Source of the DNA: [Ruminococcus] lactaris ATCC 29176
GTDB taxonomy: Bacteria; Bacillota; Clostridia; Lachnospirales; Lachnospiraceae
Assembly (NCBI RefSeq): GCF_025152405.1
Contig: NZ_CP102292.1
Coordinates: 1,736,001 to 1,800,000 of the forward strand
Direction of reading: 5' to 3'
Length of the DNA stretch: 64,000 bases
The notes beneath the pieces were generated by a model. That model ran no database searches. It had not been told where the DNA came from and was given only the letters and a program-made list of their open reading frames with translations. Numbering within the stretch: the first letter of the stretch is position 1; each line of letters begins with the position of its first letter. Both the position numbers and the translations under genes were made by a program. Shown here one piece after another: positions 20,092 to 61,292 of the stretch.

Positions 20092-20207
20092 TAAATAATT
20101 TATAAAGTATCGTTTTTTGCCCTATTTCCCTGCTTTTTTTCTTACATTTTCCCTGCTTTTCTCTTCATTTTGCCGCCTTTTTTGCACTTTCCGCAAGATA
20201 TTAGTAT

Positions 20208-20401
20208 GATGCCAGGGGCAAAAGGTCTGAAACCACGTGTGCTTGCACACTGGTGGTAGAATGACCTTTTGACCCGCCCCGATATGAGCATAAAAGTGGG
20301 GCGTAAGCACCATGATATGCGAATAGCGGGTAGGATTGTGGGAGTGCGTAGCATGAAACAATCCGTTGGCATCATTGTTGGGGGCTTTTGACCCCAACAT
20401 C
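20208..20401 (-). mobile_element. MITE-like element, full copy R2 (194 bp)
   Basis: A complete copy in reverse orientation relative to the copies at 35674 and 61090. The inverted ends read GATG(Y)(Y/R)(R)GGG(T/G)CAAAAG on both sides. A 7-bp target duplication TTAGTAT flanks it at 20201-20207 and 20402-20408. No protein is encoded with any confidence. Confidence 0.85.
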
Positions 20402-23191: not shown

Positions 23192-23204
23192 ACTTAACAG
23201 TAAA

Positions 23205-23317
23205 GATGTCGGGGTCAAAAGCCCCCGACTTTGATGCTCATATCGGGGCGGGTCCTAAGGTCTTTCACCCACCTATGAGCAAGCTCATGTGGGTTTAGAC
23301 CTTTTGACCCTGGCATC
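23205..23317 (+). mobile_element. MITE-like element, short copy R3 (113 bp)
   Basis: It has both terminal motifs (GATGTCGGGGTCAAAAG and CTTTTGACCCTGGCATC) but lacks the central about 80 bp of the full copies. A 7-bp target duplication CAGTAAA flanks it at 23198-23204 and 23318-23324. Its hairpins carry compensatory changes relative to the 194-bp copies. Confidence 0.85.
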
Positions 23318-23344
23318 CAGTAAATACAAAGTGGGGAATCAACA

Positions 23345-35673: not shown

Positions 35674-35867
35674 GATGTTGGGGGCAAAAGCCCCCAACAA
35701 TGATGCCAACGGATTGTTTCGTGCTACGCACTCCCACAATCCTACCCGCTATTCGCATATCATGGTGCTTACGCCCCACTTTTATGCTCATATCGGGGCG
35801 GGTCTCAAGGTCATTCTACCACCAGTGTGCAAGCACACGTGGTTTCAGACCTTTTGACCCTGACATC
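35674..35867 (+). mobile_element. MITE-like element, full copy R5 (194 bp)
   Basis: A full copy with ends GATGTTGGGGGCAAAAG and CTTTTGACCCTGACATC. An 8-bp duplication ATAAATTA flanks it at 35666-35673 and 35868-35875. Its right end supplies two bases of the LysR stop codon. Confidence 0.88.
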
Positions 35868-36768
35868 ATAAATTATAGTTTATTTTTTCTGTCTTCTCAA
35901 CCTGTCTGTACTGAAGATATTCTAAAAATCTCTGTACCGCAGGCTGTGCTGTCTTCCTGCTTCTCATCGCCAGTCCGATATTCCGGTATGCCGGGATTTC
36001 CAGCTCTCTTGCCACGATCCTGTAGGGAATCCTCTTCAGGATCAGTTCCGGCAAAACACTGATCCCGAGTCCGCCCTCCACCATAGCCATGATGGCATAG
36101 TCATCCCACGTTGTAAAATGTACTTTTGGTGTCAGGTGACTTCTTTCAAAAATTTCCGAAACTTCTGCTTTTGCTCCTTTTTCCAACAGCATAAACGGTT
36201 CCTCGCATAAAGCACTCACCGGAATTTTCCGATATTCAGCAAGCGGATGTCCTTCCGGGAGTACGACCAGCAGTCTGTCCTGTTCCAAAAAGACTGTGTC
36301 CAGTTCTGCATGCGTCGGAAGTCTTAAAAAACCACAGTCCACTCTTCCTTCCAGAATCCATTCTTCGATCTCTGTATAATCGCCCAGCAACATCTCATAA
36401 TCAATCTCAGGATAATCTTTCTGAAATTCCCGGATGATATTCGGCAGCCAGTGCGTAGCAACACTGGAAAATGTACCGATCCGGATCAGTCCTGACTTCA
36501 GTCCCTGCAGTTCATCCACTTCGGTCTGCAGCTTTTCATATTCTTTGCAGACATTTTCTGCATAAGGTAAAAGCTTCATTCCACTGCTGGTCAGCCTGAC
36601 TCCTAATTTACTCCGCTCCAGCAGGATCACCTTCCATTCCTTTTCAAGATCATGGATCATCCGGCTGATCCCTGACTGCGAATAGTTCAGAATCTCTGCT
36701 GCTTTCGTGAAACTGCCACACGAAACTGTTGTTACAAACGCTTTATATTTTTGTATATTCATATCCAT
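35866..36768 (-). CDS. LysR-type transcriptional regulator
   Basis: Winged helix-turn-helix regulator, 300 aa. The DNA-binding domain is at about 1-62 (FVTTVSCGSFTKAAEILNY, SQSGISRMIHDLEKE). The effector-binding periplasmic-binding-protein-like domain follows (about 90-290: GLIRIGTFSSVATHWLPNII, MVEGGLGISVLPEL). The effector is unknown. Such regulators usually act on a divergent neighbour, but here the upstream side now holds an IS110 element, so its original target may have been separated or lie across the element (proB). The last codons run into MITE copy R5, whose end forms part of the TGA stop. Confidence 0.92.
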   Translation of the reverse strand: MDMNIQKYKAFVTTVSCGSFTKAAEILNYSQSGISRMIHDLEKEWKVILLERSKLGVRLTSSGMKLLPYAENVCKEYEKLQTEVDELQGLKSGLIRIGTFSSVATHWLPNIIREFQKDYPEIDYEMLLGDYTEIEEWILEGRVDCGFLRLPTHAELDTVFLEQDRLLVVLPEGHPLAEYRKIPVSALCEEPFMLLEKGAKAEVSEIFERSHLTPKVHFTTWDDYAIMAMVEGGLGISVLPELILKRIPYRIVARELEIPAYRNIGLAMRSRKTAQPAVQRFLEYLQYRQVEKTEKINYNL

Positions 36769-52561: not shown

Positions 52562-53362
52562 ATGGATAAACCTTCTCCCATGACGCTTCTTGATGAACTC
52601 ACAACCCCGGTACAGTTTCGTATTCTGAAACTCCTGCTCCCTTTTTTTTCCTTTTCTCAGCAACGTATGCTTGCCACATGGATTAAATTTTCGGAGCTTC
52701 AGAGAACTTTGGAACTATTTTCTTCCAGGTATACTTTCTCAGAATCACCTTTAAAAGCACATTCCTTATCCGCTTCCTTTTCTTATGAAGAAATTCTTGA
52801 GGTACTCGCCCCTTATCTGACTGAATCTGAGCGTCAGATGAGTGAAAATCTGAAAAACATGAAAGAAATGCTGTCTATGGTGCAGTTATTTCAGGATTTC
52901 TCTCCCGACCCTGGAAATTGGGGATTCGGAAATAATTCTGAAAATGAATTTGAAAACAGGTTCGGAAATGGATTTGAAAATGAATCTGCAAACGAATTTA
53001 AAAACAAGTTCCGAAATGAATCTTCAGATCCGCCTCCACCGGAACCATCCTTTGAAAACACCCGGGACTCTCCTCTCAGTTTTCTTATGAATCTGCTTAC
53101 TCCTGAACAACGCAACACTTTCAATACCTGTAATGAACTTTTTGCACATGCACTGACCCCTTCCACTGCGTCAGCCGATATTTCTCAACCGCTAAATCAG
53201 AAAGGAGATTTAACAAATGGAACAATGGATGAACCATCCTGCAATGAAATCAATCGACCCAGCCAAGCTGGAACTGATCAGACTGGCAGCACAACAGACC
53301 CAGGGCAAGACCGGACGCAATCTCGCCCCGGTCATGCTCAGTCTGATCACCAATGCCAATAG
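52562..53362 (+). CDS. Unknown protein with Asn/Phe/Glu-rich repeats; 3' end probably frameshifted
   Basis: Not recognised. From the ATG at 52562 (AGGA upstream; an in-frame ATG at 52499 is also possible) the protein starts MDKPSPMTLLDELTTPVQF, then FRILKLLLPFFSF. A helical region (FSYEEILEVLAPYLTESERQ) and a low-complexity stretch of (N/F)(E/G)N(E/K)F(E/R/K) repeats follow at about 120-155, then a Pro-rich segment. The frame runs 146 nt into the next gene, where its product is merely a shadow of that gene. A TAA one frame over lies just before the next gene's binding site, so a small frameshift may have extended it. It forms a unit with the 94-aa gene. Confidence 0.55.
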   Translation: MDKPSPMTLLDELTTPVQFRILKLLLPFFSFSQQRMLATWIKFSELQRTLELFSSRYTFSESPLKAHSLSASFSYEEILEVLAPYLTESERQMSENLKNMKEMLSMVQLFQDFSPDPGNWGFGNNSENEFENRFGNGFENESANEFKNKFRNESSDPPPPEPSFENTRDSPLSFLMNLLTPEQRNTFNTCNELFAHALTPSTASADISQPLNQKGDLTNGTMDEPSCNEINRPSQAGTDQTGSTTDPGQDRTQSRPGHAQSDHQCQ

Positions 53363-53501
53363 AAAAGGGCTTCGCTTTACTCCTGAAGAAGTTTCTCTGA
53401 TTCTGGAAGTTCTAAAAGAGGGAAAGTCCCCAGAAGAGCAGGCTCAGATCGACCGGATGATGGAAATGACCAGAGCTGTATTCAGAAAACATCTTGGGTG
53501 A
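53217..53501 (+). CDS. Unknown conserved-looking 94-aa protein
   Basis: Not recognised. 94 aa, mostly alpha-helical and charged: MEQWMNHPAMKSIDPAKLEL, IRLAAQQTQGKTGRNLAPVM, TNANRKGLRFTPEEVSLILE, then EEQAQIDRMMEMTRAVFRKH. The ATG has a strong AAAGGAG at ideal spacing. A regular helical pattern and no low complexity make it a real protein. It overlaps the end of the 52562 frame and is immediately followed by the structured RNA at 53565, whose shared 5' motif starts one nt after this gene's stop codon. A regulatory or adaptor role is possible; nothing decides it. Confidence 0.75.
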   Translation: MEQWMNHPAMKSIDPAKLELIRLAAQQTQGKTGRNLAPVMLSLITNANRKGLRFTPEEVSLILEVLKEGKSPEEQAQIDRMMEMTRAVFRKHLG

Positions 53502-53502
53502 A

Positions 53503-53519
53503 ATTTGTAGTTGTTGGAG
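53503..53519 (+). repeat. 17-nt motif after the stop codon, copy 1
   Basis: AATTTGTAGTTGTTGGA begins at once after the stop of the 94-aa gene. The same 17 nt begins at once after the stop of the TtcA-like gene on the other strand (54239-54255). Each is about 45 nt upstream of a structured RNA. Confidence 0.9.
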
Positions 53520-53564
53520 TGAAAATGTTTCGGCAGTCAGAAAGTATCTGATGAAAAAACGTTC

Positions 53565-53751
53565 ATATCCGCCCTTGCTGTTGCATCGCAGTGCAGGACC
53601 CGCTTTACCTCAGCCCGTTGACAACTTGTAACAGGAACGTGGAAACACTCGTGCAGAGGCACTCCTGTTTACGTTCCTTAACAAGTTGGGCAAAGTGTCT
53701 TCGGAACGCTCCTTGTCAATGCACTGCTCACGCAACAGCAAGGGCGGATAT
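53565..53751 (+). ncRNA. Structured RNA, copy A
   Basis: 187 nt with a perfect 20-bp closing stem (53565-53584 with 53732-53751). Inside: P2 GCAGTGCA/TGCACTGC (53588-53595 with 53720-53727). P3 CAACTTGT/ACAAGTTG (53622-53629 with 53681-53688). P4 AGGAACGT/ACGTTCCT (53633-53640 with 53671-53678). P4b AAACA/TGTTT, a GTGC-AGAG-GCAC tip, and P5 AGTGT-CTTCGGA-ACGCT (53694-53710). Unpaired blocks CCGCTTTACCTCAGCCCGTT and GCAAAGTGTCTTCGG are identical in copy B while the stems differ but still pair. No protein frame is conserved. It may belong to a known class such as raiA-type RNAs of Firmicutes; this could not be checked. Confidence 0.9.
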
Positions 53752-53832
53752 TAGGCTTTTCAAATCAGAAAATTTTCCCTCATGCCAAAACAGTTTCTCC
53801 CAACAAACACGAAATTCCAATAAGAAATAAAG

Positions 53833-53942
53833 AGCCGGATGGCTATCGACTAAGATAAATGCTCCATCAAATAGTAAATACAATATCTATTATCTGATAT
53901 TTACGATCGAATATCTTAGTCAATAGCCATCCGGCTTTTTTC
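53833..53942. terminator. Long two-way terminator hairpin between the RNA copies
   Basis: 25-nt arms (53833-53857 and 53912-53936) pair with one mismatch, with an inner GTAAATA/TATTTAC stem in the loop. T-runs lie on the plus-strand side and, as the A-run at 53828, on the minus-strand side. It would stop transcripts of both structured RNAs. Confidence 0.85.
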
Positions 53943-54011
53943 TATTCTTTTTAAATTTGCATTGTTGAGTGAATACGCTGTGGAGCTAAAAACTTCTTAT
54001 CGAGATGGTCA

Positions 54012-54194
54012 GCGGAAAGCAGAGTGTTCCTGAGCAGGTGCATTAGCAGGAGCGTTCCGAAGACACTTTGCAGCGTTTGTTAGAGAAAGTAAATTGAGTG
54101 CCTTTGCACGAAGATTTCCACTTTCGAGTTACAAACGGTCAACGGGCTGAGGTAAAGCGGGCCTGCACCGCGAAGGAATATCTCTGCTTTCCGC
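54012..54194 (-). ncRNA. Structured RNA, copy B
   Basis: 183 nt, on the opposite strand from copy A. The closing stem is GCGGAAAGCAGAG with CTCTGCTTTCCGC (54182-54194 with 54012-54024), unrelated in sequence to copy A's stem. P2 is GGTGCA/TGCACC, P3 CGTTTGT/ACAAACG, P4 GAAAGT/ACTTTC, P4b AAAT/ATTT and the tip GTGC-AAAG-GCAC. The conserved loop blocks and P5 are the same as in copy A. It lies about 45 nt after the TtcA-like gene's 17-nt motif. Confidence 0.9.
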
Positions 54195-54238
54195 GTCCGC
54201 TTCGCCATAAAGAAGTCTTTTGCTTTACAAGCGTATCA

Positions 54239-54255
54239 TTCCAACAACTACAAAT
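54239..54255 (-). repeat. 17-nt motif after the stop codon, copy 2
   Basis: AATTTGTAGTTGTTGGA on the minus strand, directly after the TAA of the TtcA-like gene. See 53503-53519. Confidence 0.9.
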
Positions 54256-54972
54256 TTATCCCGGCCAATCCGAAAATCTTCCATTCACAATCGCATGCAT
54301 CATCCTGTCCTTTGCCCCAGGTGTCTCCCTGTTAATCTGCTCCATAAGCTGCCTGGCATATTCTCTTTTTGTCGATCCGTCTACCGGGCATGCATTTTTC
54401 ACAATCTGGATTCCCTGTTCCACTACAAAATTGGCAACTCCTTTTTCCGGAACATACATCATCGGACGAATCACCGTTACTCCGGCTTCAGGCAGAACCG
54501 TCATCGGTGGAAATGCATAAAATCTTCCCTCATAGATCAGAGACATGAGAGCGGTCTCTATGAAATCATCTTTGTTATGTGCATAGGCTATTTTATTGAT
54601 TCCAAGCTCAGCTAACTGTTTATACATGGCACCTTTTCTCAGCTTCGCACACAGAGAGCAGGGTCTTATCTCCGGATTTTCCTGAAAGACAATCTCGGCA
54701 ATCTTTGTGTCCACCTGCTCATATGGGATTTTCAGACTGTCGCAGAAATCTGAAACACCGGTAAAATCCATTCCCTCAAATCCCACATTGCATGTAATCG
54801 CAGATAATTCAAAGTTTTTCGGATAAAATCTCTGCAACTGCCTCATCGCATAAAGTAATGTCAGAGAATCCTTTCCTCCTGAGACTCCCACAGCAACTCT
54901 GTCTCCGTCTTCCAGCATATGATACTCCTCAATGGCCTGACGAATCAGACTTAATAATTTTTGTTGCTTCAC
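54256..54972 (-). CDS. TtcA-like tRNA 2-thiolation/PP-loop ATPase
   Basis: N-type ATP pyrophosphatase of the TtcA/TilS group. The PP-loop is VAVGVSGGKDSLTLLYAM. The two CxxC-type Cys regions are RPCSLCAKLRKGAMYK and a late KNACPVDGSTKREY. HNKDDFIETALMSLIYEGRF is the conserved His/Asp segment. 238 aa. TtcA thiolates C32 of tRNA with an Fe-S cluster, so a tRNA-modifying role is likely; the exact substrate is not certain. The start is GTG with GAGGTG upstream. It precedes structured RNA copy B and follows the thioesterase gene on the same strand. Confidence 0.9.
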   Translation of the reverse strand: MKQQKLLSLIRQAIEEYHMLEDGDRVAVGVSGGKDSLTLLYAMRQLQRFYPKNFELSAITCNVGFEGMDFTGVSDFCDSLKIPYEQVDTKIAEIVFQENPEIRPCSLCAKLRKGAMYKQLAELGINKIAYAHNKDDFIETALMSLIYEGRFYAFPPMTVLPEAGVTVIRPMMYVPEKGVANFVVEQGIQIVKNACPVDGSTKREYARQLMEQINRETPGAKDRMMHAIVNGRFSDWPG

Positions 54973-61089: not shown

Positions 61090-61283
61090 GATGTTGGGGT
61101 CAAAAGCCCCCAACAATGATGCCAACGGATTGTTTCGTGCTACGCACTCCCACAATCCTACCCGCTATTCGCATATCATGGTGCTTACGCCCCACTTTTA
61201 TGCTCATATCTGGGCGGGTCTCAAGGTCATTCTACCACCAGTGTGCAAGCACACGTGGTTTCAGACCTTTTGACCCTGACATC
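61090..61283 (+). mobile_element. MITE-like element, full copy R6 (194 bp)
   Basis: Nearly identical to the copy at 35674. It has a 7-bp target duplication TTATAAA at 61083-61089 and 61284-61290. It sits between the carAB promoter and the stop of the transglutaminase-like gene. Confidence 0.88.
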
Positions 61284-61292
61284 TTATAAATT

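Follow-up and report, generated by a model that had tools for sequence, protein, structure and literature searches.

Facing pairs of folded units at gene 3' ends in [Ruminococcus] lactaris, best read as a new family of MITE/REPIN-like repeats

The chromosome of [Ruminococcus] lactaris ATCC 29176 carries a repeated element in which two folded units face each other between inverted repeats, and the edges of this element often coincide with the stop codons of flanking genes. The facing layout recurs in several species. Our best reading is that these folded repeats at gene 3' ends form a new family akin to MITEs and REPINs, and on balance we favour a dispersed repeat of the MITE type that carries no genes, with two facing halves around a central hairpin, whose fold would be kept as DNA. 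The genome is a single contig of 2.73 Mb, and the window, by which we mean the whole stretch of 64,000 nucleotides analysed, covers its bases 1736001-1800000. The copy in the window and its neighbours comprise the following features.

53217..53501, + strand: left neighbour, a 94-aa ORF without Pfam match; its stop codon touches the element
53502..54256, no strand assigned: whole element, 755 bp, with the outer terminal inverted repeats as its ends
53502..53518, + strand: left outer inverted repeat, directly adjoining the left ORF's TGA stop (53499-53501)
53565..53751, + strand: structured unit A, with a 20-bp closing stem (53565-53584 with 53732-53751)
53588..53727, + strand: core of unit A matched by covariance model R1 at 126.5 bits, the window copy being among the model-building sequences
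53799..53815, - strand: inner inverted repeat, closing the left half of ~313 bp
53829..53940, no strand assigned: long hairpin at the centre, with T-runs after it on both strands; putative two-way terminator
53953..53971, + strand: repeat-like inner stretch with which the right half opens
54012..54194, - strand: structured unit B, with a 13-bp closing stem (54182-54194 with 54012-54024)
54035..54171, - strand: core of unit B matched by R1 at 108.2 bits, the window copy again being among the model-building sequences
54240..54256, - strand: right outer inverted repeat, whose final base falls in the right ORF's stop codon (54256-54258)
54256..54972, - strand: right neighbour, a 238-aa PP-loop protein (PF01171), which we take to be TtcA, whose TAA stop (54256-54258) touches the element

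Read from the outside in, the left half begins with the outer inverted repeat and a spacer, after which come unit A, including its closing stem, and the inner inverted repeat; beyond the central hairpin, the right half runs from the inner repeat-like stretch through unit B, on the opposite strand, to the second outer inverted repeat. Given the outer and inner inverted repeats, each half is a stretch of ~313 bp bounded by inverted repeats. An earlier note on this DNA had described two homologous structured copies here, and both are present as described, with the loop blocks and stem changes it named, closing stems of 20 bp and 13 bp, and folding energies of -90.7 kcal/mol (z -8.45) for unit A and -69.4 kcal/mol (z -4.96) for unit B. 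That description did not include the inverted repeats, outer or inner, nor the fact that the whole unit is repeated and that stop codons touch the element ends. The central hairpin folds as RNA at -50.0 (z -9.55) and is probably a two-way terminator for the flanking genes; a simple terminator scan, which accepts loops of 3-8 only, returned 0 sites. As single-stranded DNA, the whole element is predicted to form a single long hairpin (z -23.9, 20 shuffles).

The element is repeated as a unit across the genome. The 23-base loop core matched 67 times (62 exactly, 5 with one mismatch) and the reversed core 0 times in the same genome, with 0-1 mismatches allowed; 29 stretches around loop-core sites were inspected. 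By type, the copies comprise 32 A, 34 B and 1 truncated, arranged as 32 facing pairs of one A and one B, with the truncated copy serving as the B unit of one pair, and 3 lone B copies. The twin convergent layout that the earlier note had thought unusual is thus how this dispersed element normally occurs, and the whole facing pair is present in both genome orientations. All 32 pairs have the outer inverted repeat at both ends, with 0-2 substitutions over 15 bases. A search for the inner motif gave 30 matches, 5 of which were the outer repeat, so that 25 of the 32 elements carry it at the inner position; with up to 4 substitutions allowed, an inner repeat-like stretch was matched in 32/32. Element lengths are 613-959 bp, except for three of 2225-2352 bp with genes inside. 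There was no target-site duplication in 23/32 elements and only TA in 9/32.

To place the element among known repeats, we compared it with descriptions in excerpts of the cited papers. MITEs are described as short, dispersed elements without a transposase gene, with inverted repeats and stable stem-loops (excerpt of PMC10969869). The present element is likewise short, gene-less and dispersed in many copies, with terminal inverted repeats and stable stem-loops, but it differs in having a complex conserved core and in not being AT-rich relative to its surroundings (GC 0.430 vs 0.435 for the window). REPINs and BIMEs are extragenic, multicopy pairs of inverted units round a spacer in which compensatory changes are common; their hairpin is predicted in single-stranded DNA or mRNA, and lone units are regarded as remnants (excerpt of PMC3116915). 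Two inverted units round a spacer, an extragenic position and many copies are also found here, and the single-stranded hairpin of the whole element is much like that description (excerpt of PMC3116915). REP palindromes measure 20-40 bp (excerpt of PMC3733652), however, whereas the units here are ~185 nt long with several helices and conserved loops, and the element has further inverted repeats as well as a terminator-like hairpin at its centre. Because of this unit size, and because no RAYT link was shown, we do not file the element as a REPIN, although it may work like one.

The pneumococcal repeats BOX, RUP and SPRITE are over-represented between convergent genes (excerpt of PMC3049150) and are reported to insert into one another (excerpt of PMC10969869). 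Compared by description only, they resemble the element as small, interspersed, structured repeats, but its exact abutment on stop codons at both sides and its facing twins have no counterpart in that description (excerpt of PMC3049150). REPIN/BIME pairs and BOX/RUP/SPRITE repeats are the closest kinds among those described in these excerpts (PMC3116915, PMC3049150). A search of literature listings, which did not extend to the supplementary candidate lists of PMC8040213, found no description of the element itself. The same genome holds another structured repeat, Clostridiales-1 RNA (RF01699), which has no match on unit A or B. In the window it occurs at four places, with scores from 142.1 to 51.9 bits:

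20207-20374, + strand: Clostridiales-1 RNA (RF01699)
23204-23318, - strand: Clostridiales-1 RNA (RF01699)
35701-35868, - strand: Clostridiales-1 RNA (RF01699)
61117-61284, - strand: Clostridiales-1 RNA (RF01699)

Its end motif lies within 9/32 elements of the genome, and within a tenth (2104044) by eye. Since it is nested in the elements in this way, what Rfam lists as an 'sRNA' appears to be a dispersed mobile repeat itself.

The fold of the R1 unit is strongly supported by the sequence comparison. Among 62 distinct homologues, 93.0% of 2333 cells were paired, compared with only 36-48% when partner columns were slid by 1-3 on the same 62 rows, and double-sided changes occurred at 37 of the 40 pairs, bearing out the strong covariation claimed earlier. 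This 62-row alignment was fitted to model R1, which favours its pairing somewhat. Independently of model fitting, a MAFFT alignment of 28 copies (A1) gave 29 RNAalifold pairs, 20 of them with double-sided changes. A conserved fold with compensatory changes is accompanied by conserved unpaired loop blocks, which vary hardly at all within the genus and are for the most part retained in three other genera. Neither copy in the window, nor any of 15 related loci, had an Rfam match at gathering level. Under permissive settings Rfam returned 11 rows, none of which reached gathering level: nine microRNAs and one Enterococcus sRNA on or around the central hairpin, and a snoRNA inside copy B on the other strand. 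The suggestion that the units are a divergent raiA RNA, which the earlier note allowed, has similar size in its favour and nothing else; model RF03072 was absent from both Rfam scans of the copies and unmatched in the R. lactaris genome, a result that is weak alone because no control genome matched either. We regard this identity as extremely improbable.

Structured homologues occur in related genomes, as the earlier note had required of a real structure. Model R1 matched 44/58 genomes of the genus, 4/299 of the family (R. lactaris included) and 6/392 of the order, all six within the family; all three scans ran with Infernal's stricter filters, which apply above 40 genomes. A pattern search of named genomes returned 54 stretches, mostly Mediterraneibacter by title, the remaining titles being Ruminococcus, Lachnoclostridium, Clostridium, Eubacteriales or Lachnospiraceae. 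Individual genomes carry between 1 and more than 50 copies. The unit is also present in three other genera of the family, where the stems differ and the loop blocks are largely kept, with exceptions that include loci L209, L211 and L213. Among the matches listed (150 from six genomes, of nine searched), 24 of 25 close pairs were facing and one was same-strand. Other species carry inverted-repeat stretches of 307-314 bp and composites of, for example, 678-751 bp, and the 307-314-bp stretches may all be halves of composites. At one locus (L203), short minisatellite-like tandem duplicates of the outer part of the element lie beside an R1 copy.

In some species, R1 faces a second structured class (class II) with a different fold and the loop AACTCG..CTCAGACA. 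Of 41 R1 copies selected because they lack an R1 partner, 16 had class II within 1 kb, facing in 16/16; another 16 had no class II by motif, and 9 had too little sequence. Examples include L053, L057, L080, L086, L114, L140, L141, L146 and L162, of which L053, L140, L141, L146 and L162 had no Rfam gathering match. In 23 distinct class II copies, 38 of 41 RNAalifold pairs had double changes. That class II faces R1 indicates a common plan of two facing folded units, not necessarily one fold twice.

The element often lies exactly at gene ends. With ORFs of 150 aa or more, 25 of the 64 element edges in the R. lactaris genome lie exactly at a stop-codon end (0/+1), compared with 104 of 59362 position-orientations (0.18%) in an intergenic null, and 41/64 fall within -15..+12 of a stop, against 929/59362. 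In 15/32 elements both edges fall within this wider range. As judged by eye, the 15 neighbour proteins that were inspected look intact and mostly like housekeeping proteins. In other genomes, a mechanically called same-strand ORF (>=100 aa) ends 29-234 nt upstream of 69/80 copies, a count that has no null of its own and draws on 81 of 108 rows chosen by the analyst (1/81 set aside for lack of room), leaving out duplicate loci, most rows cut by contig ends and second other-strand hits. One site recurs: shortly after the isocitrate dehydrogenase stop, several species carry an R1 or class II unit, while other species have a plain terminator or almost no gap (the stop was not located in L148 and L151). 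The pattern at this 3' end suggests a site where elements land, or are retained, repeatedly. At L154 and L160, the isocitrate dehydrogenase gene and its convergent neighbour stand nearly gapless where others have an element or terminator.

Placement directly after ORFs is reminiscent of integrons, in whose cassette arrays a folded attC site follows each ORF. Recombination sites of this kind, folded as single strands, would also be expected to lack an RNA-like strand bias, as is found here (below). The present copies are scattered over the chromosome without cassette arrays, however, next to the mostly housekeeping neighbours just described, and we consider an attC-like function very unlikely. 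A bolder proposal makes the element a new kind of mobile DNA, a mobile 3'-end cassette whose multi-branched folded DNA would be the substrate of an enzyme; it would integrate at stops through its mechanism and not by selection alone, replace the sequence between convergent genes and so renew their 3' ends. We hold this to be doubtful.

The position after genes, in the sense orientation, would also suit a 3'-UTR RNA, which counts against the MITE-type DNA reading. In such a functional RNA, the fold would work as a cis-acting 3'-UTR element (a stabiliser or processing site) or as a protein-binding multicopy small RNA, the working strand being either the sense strand as read here or the opposite one. 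The upstream same-strand ORFs, the conserved unpaired blocks and the strong fold all agree with it. If a transcript were selected, one-sided changes to G·U should outlast those to A·C on the working strand, G·U and A·C being the same mutations seen on opposite strands. R1 had 49 G·U and 59 A·C cells (26 and 42 within the genus alone), and class II had 15 and 30, whereas 6S RNA of the same genus, our control, had 37 and 1. The 6S pairs were taken from RNAalifold and the R1 pairs from a structure drawn by the analyst; a hand count on RNAalifold's own pairs of alignment A1 gave 18 G·U vs 19 A·C. G·U is thus not tolerated far above A·C in R1, and neither strand shows the near-exclusive G·U of 6S, which speaks against a functional RNA on either.

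The opposite strand has somewhat more in its favour, since A·C exceeds G·U in the genus and in class II and several consensus energies are lower there. RNAalifold gave sense vs antisense energies of -21.6 vs -41.4 for A1, -47.3 vs -53.5 for the genus part of a second R1 alignment (A2) and -42.8 vs -74.0 for class II, which could mean an other-strand transcript and to that extent also counts against the MITE-type DNA reading. The energies are about equal, however, for the whole of A2 (-42.6 vs -43.8), and 6S prefers its sense strand (-44.4 vs -26.1). Single copies folded more stably as antisense in 62/63 cases, by a mean of 8.0 kcal/mol, but shuffles also favour antisense (5.3 sd 7.4 kcal/mol); the advantage is partly base composition, and since the shuffles lean the same way we draw no inference from it. 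From the counts and the RNAalifold energies, we conclude that the strand read as sense lacks an RNA signature. Taking both strands together, a functional RNA is possible but, in our view, improbable.

Either folded DNA matters, or the matching of arms is partly mutational, or an opposite-strand RNA exists. Judged from the sequences, the changes at paired bases suggest that folded DNA is kept, and not only an RNA copy. The earlier note's claim that such covariation can be kept only by selection on RNA structure is not supported by the comparison with 6S; besides, template switching in DNA can create compensatory changes, making and mending stems (excerpt of PMC8794818). In its extreme form this process would make the element a decaying repeat of mutation-driven palindromes, whose covariation implies no present function of the fold as RNA or DNA. 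The many double changes with few G·U steps fit such an origin, as do the closing-stem arms, which occur in mixed combinations (14 kinds among 31 A copies of the genome). Mutation bias alone, however, leaves the kept loop blocks and the multi-helix plan unexplained; the conservation of the loops speaks for some role of function, and we think such a mainly mutational origin unlikely.

Returning to the MITE-type DNA reading, searches with PF04754 and PF01797 found no mobilising enzyme. The PF04754 (YhgA-like) gene is present in six copies in the R. lactaris genome (782154, 844019, 172315, 515341, 478763 and 2166214), all beside elements or remnants, and the copies that were read share the same upstream junction. 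As a mobiliser it was rejected, R1 being present without a PF04754 match in genomes G004, G036, G015, G115 and G312. PF01797 (Y1 transposase) matched 16/16 R1-bearing genomes and 12/14 R1-lacking ones, with a single match, a 159-aa frame, in R. lactaris, and so does not separate the two groups. The third of the three long pairs (2225-2352 bp) has a YhgA-like gene between the element ends; the other two hold different IS630-type transposase genes by reading, with DDE_3 in the one scanned, as follows.

750883-753043 (own genome): IS630-type transposase gene inside an element, beside a Clostridiales-1 copy
912692-914747 (own genome): IS630-type transposase gene inside an element, beside a Clostridiales-1 copy

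These transposase genes and Clostridiales-1 copies inside elements are nested mobile DNA. Movement of the element was not seen, and no empty site was found in a near strain. The pattern had 0 matches in a viral contig collection and none in plasmids; four short human-faecal 'phage' records match, at the record end.

On the reading that we favour, the element is probably mobile, and the whole unit would spread by copying, through an enzyme that handles a folded strand. Its fold would be kept as DNA, as a single-stranded hairpin or cruciform on which this trans-acting enzyme works, and template-switch repair perhaps helps by making the stem arms match. Transcription from each flanking gene would continue into the adjoining half and end at the central hairpin. 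The element would persist after stops, above all between convergent genes, because it is there a harmless stand-in for their 3' ends.

Through these findings a genus of gut bacteria gains a family of dispersed, structured repeats whose fold is complex and conserved. Because its strong covariation comes without a G·U signature, folded mobile DNA could mislead the discovery of RNA motifs, for which the count of G·U against A·C, set beside 6S, is a cheap check. The family further lends itself to studying the ways in which repeats settle at gene 3' ends and adjacent genes acquire terminators.
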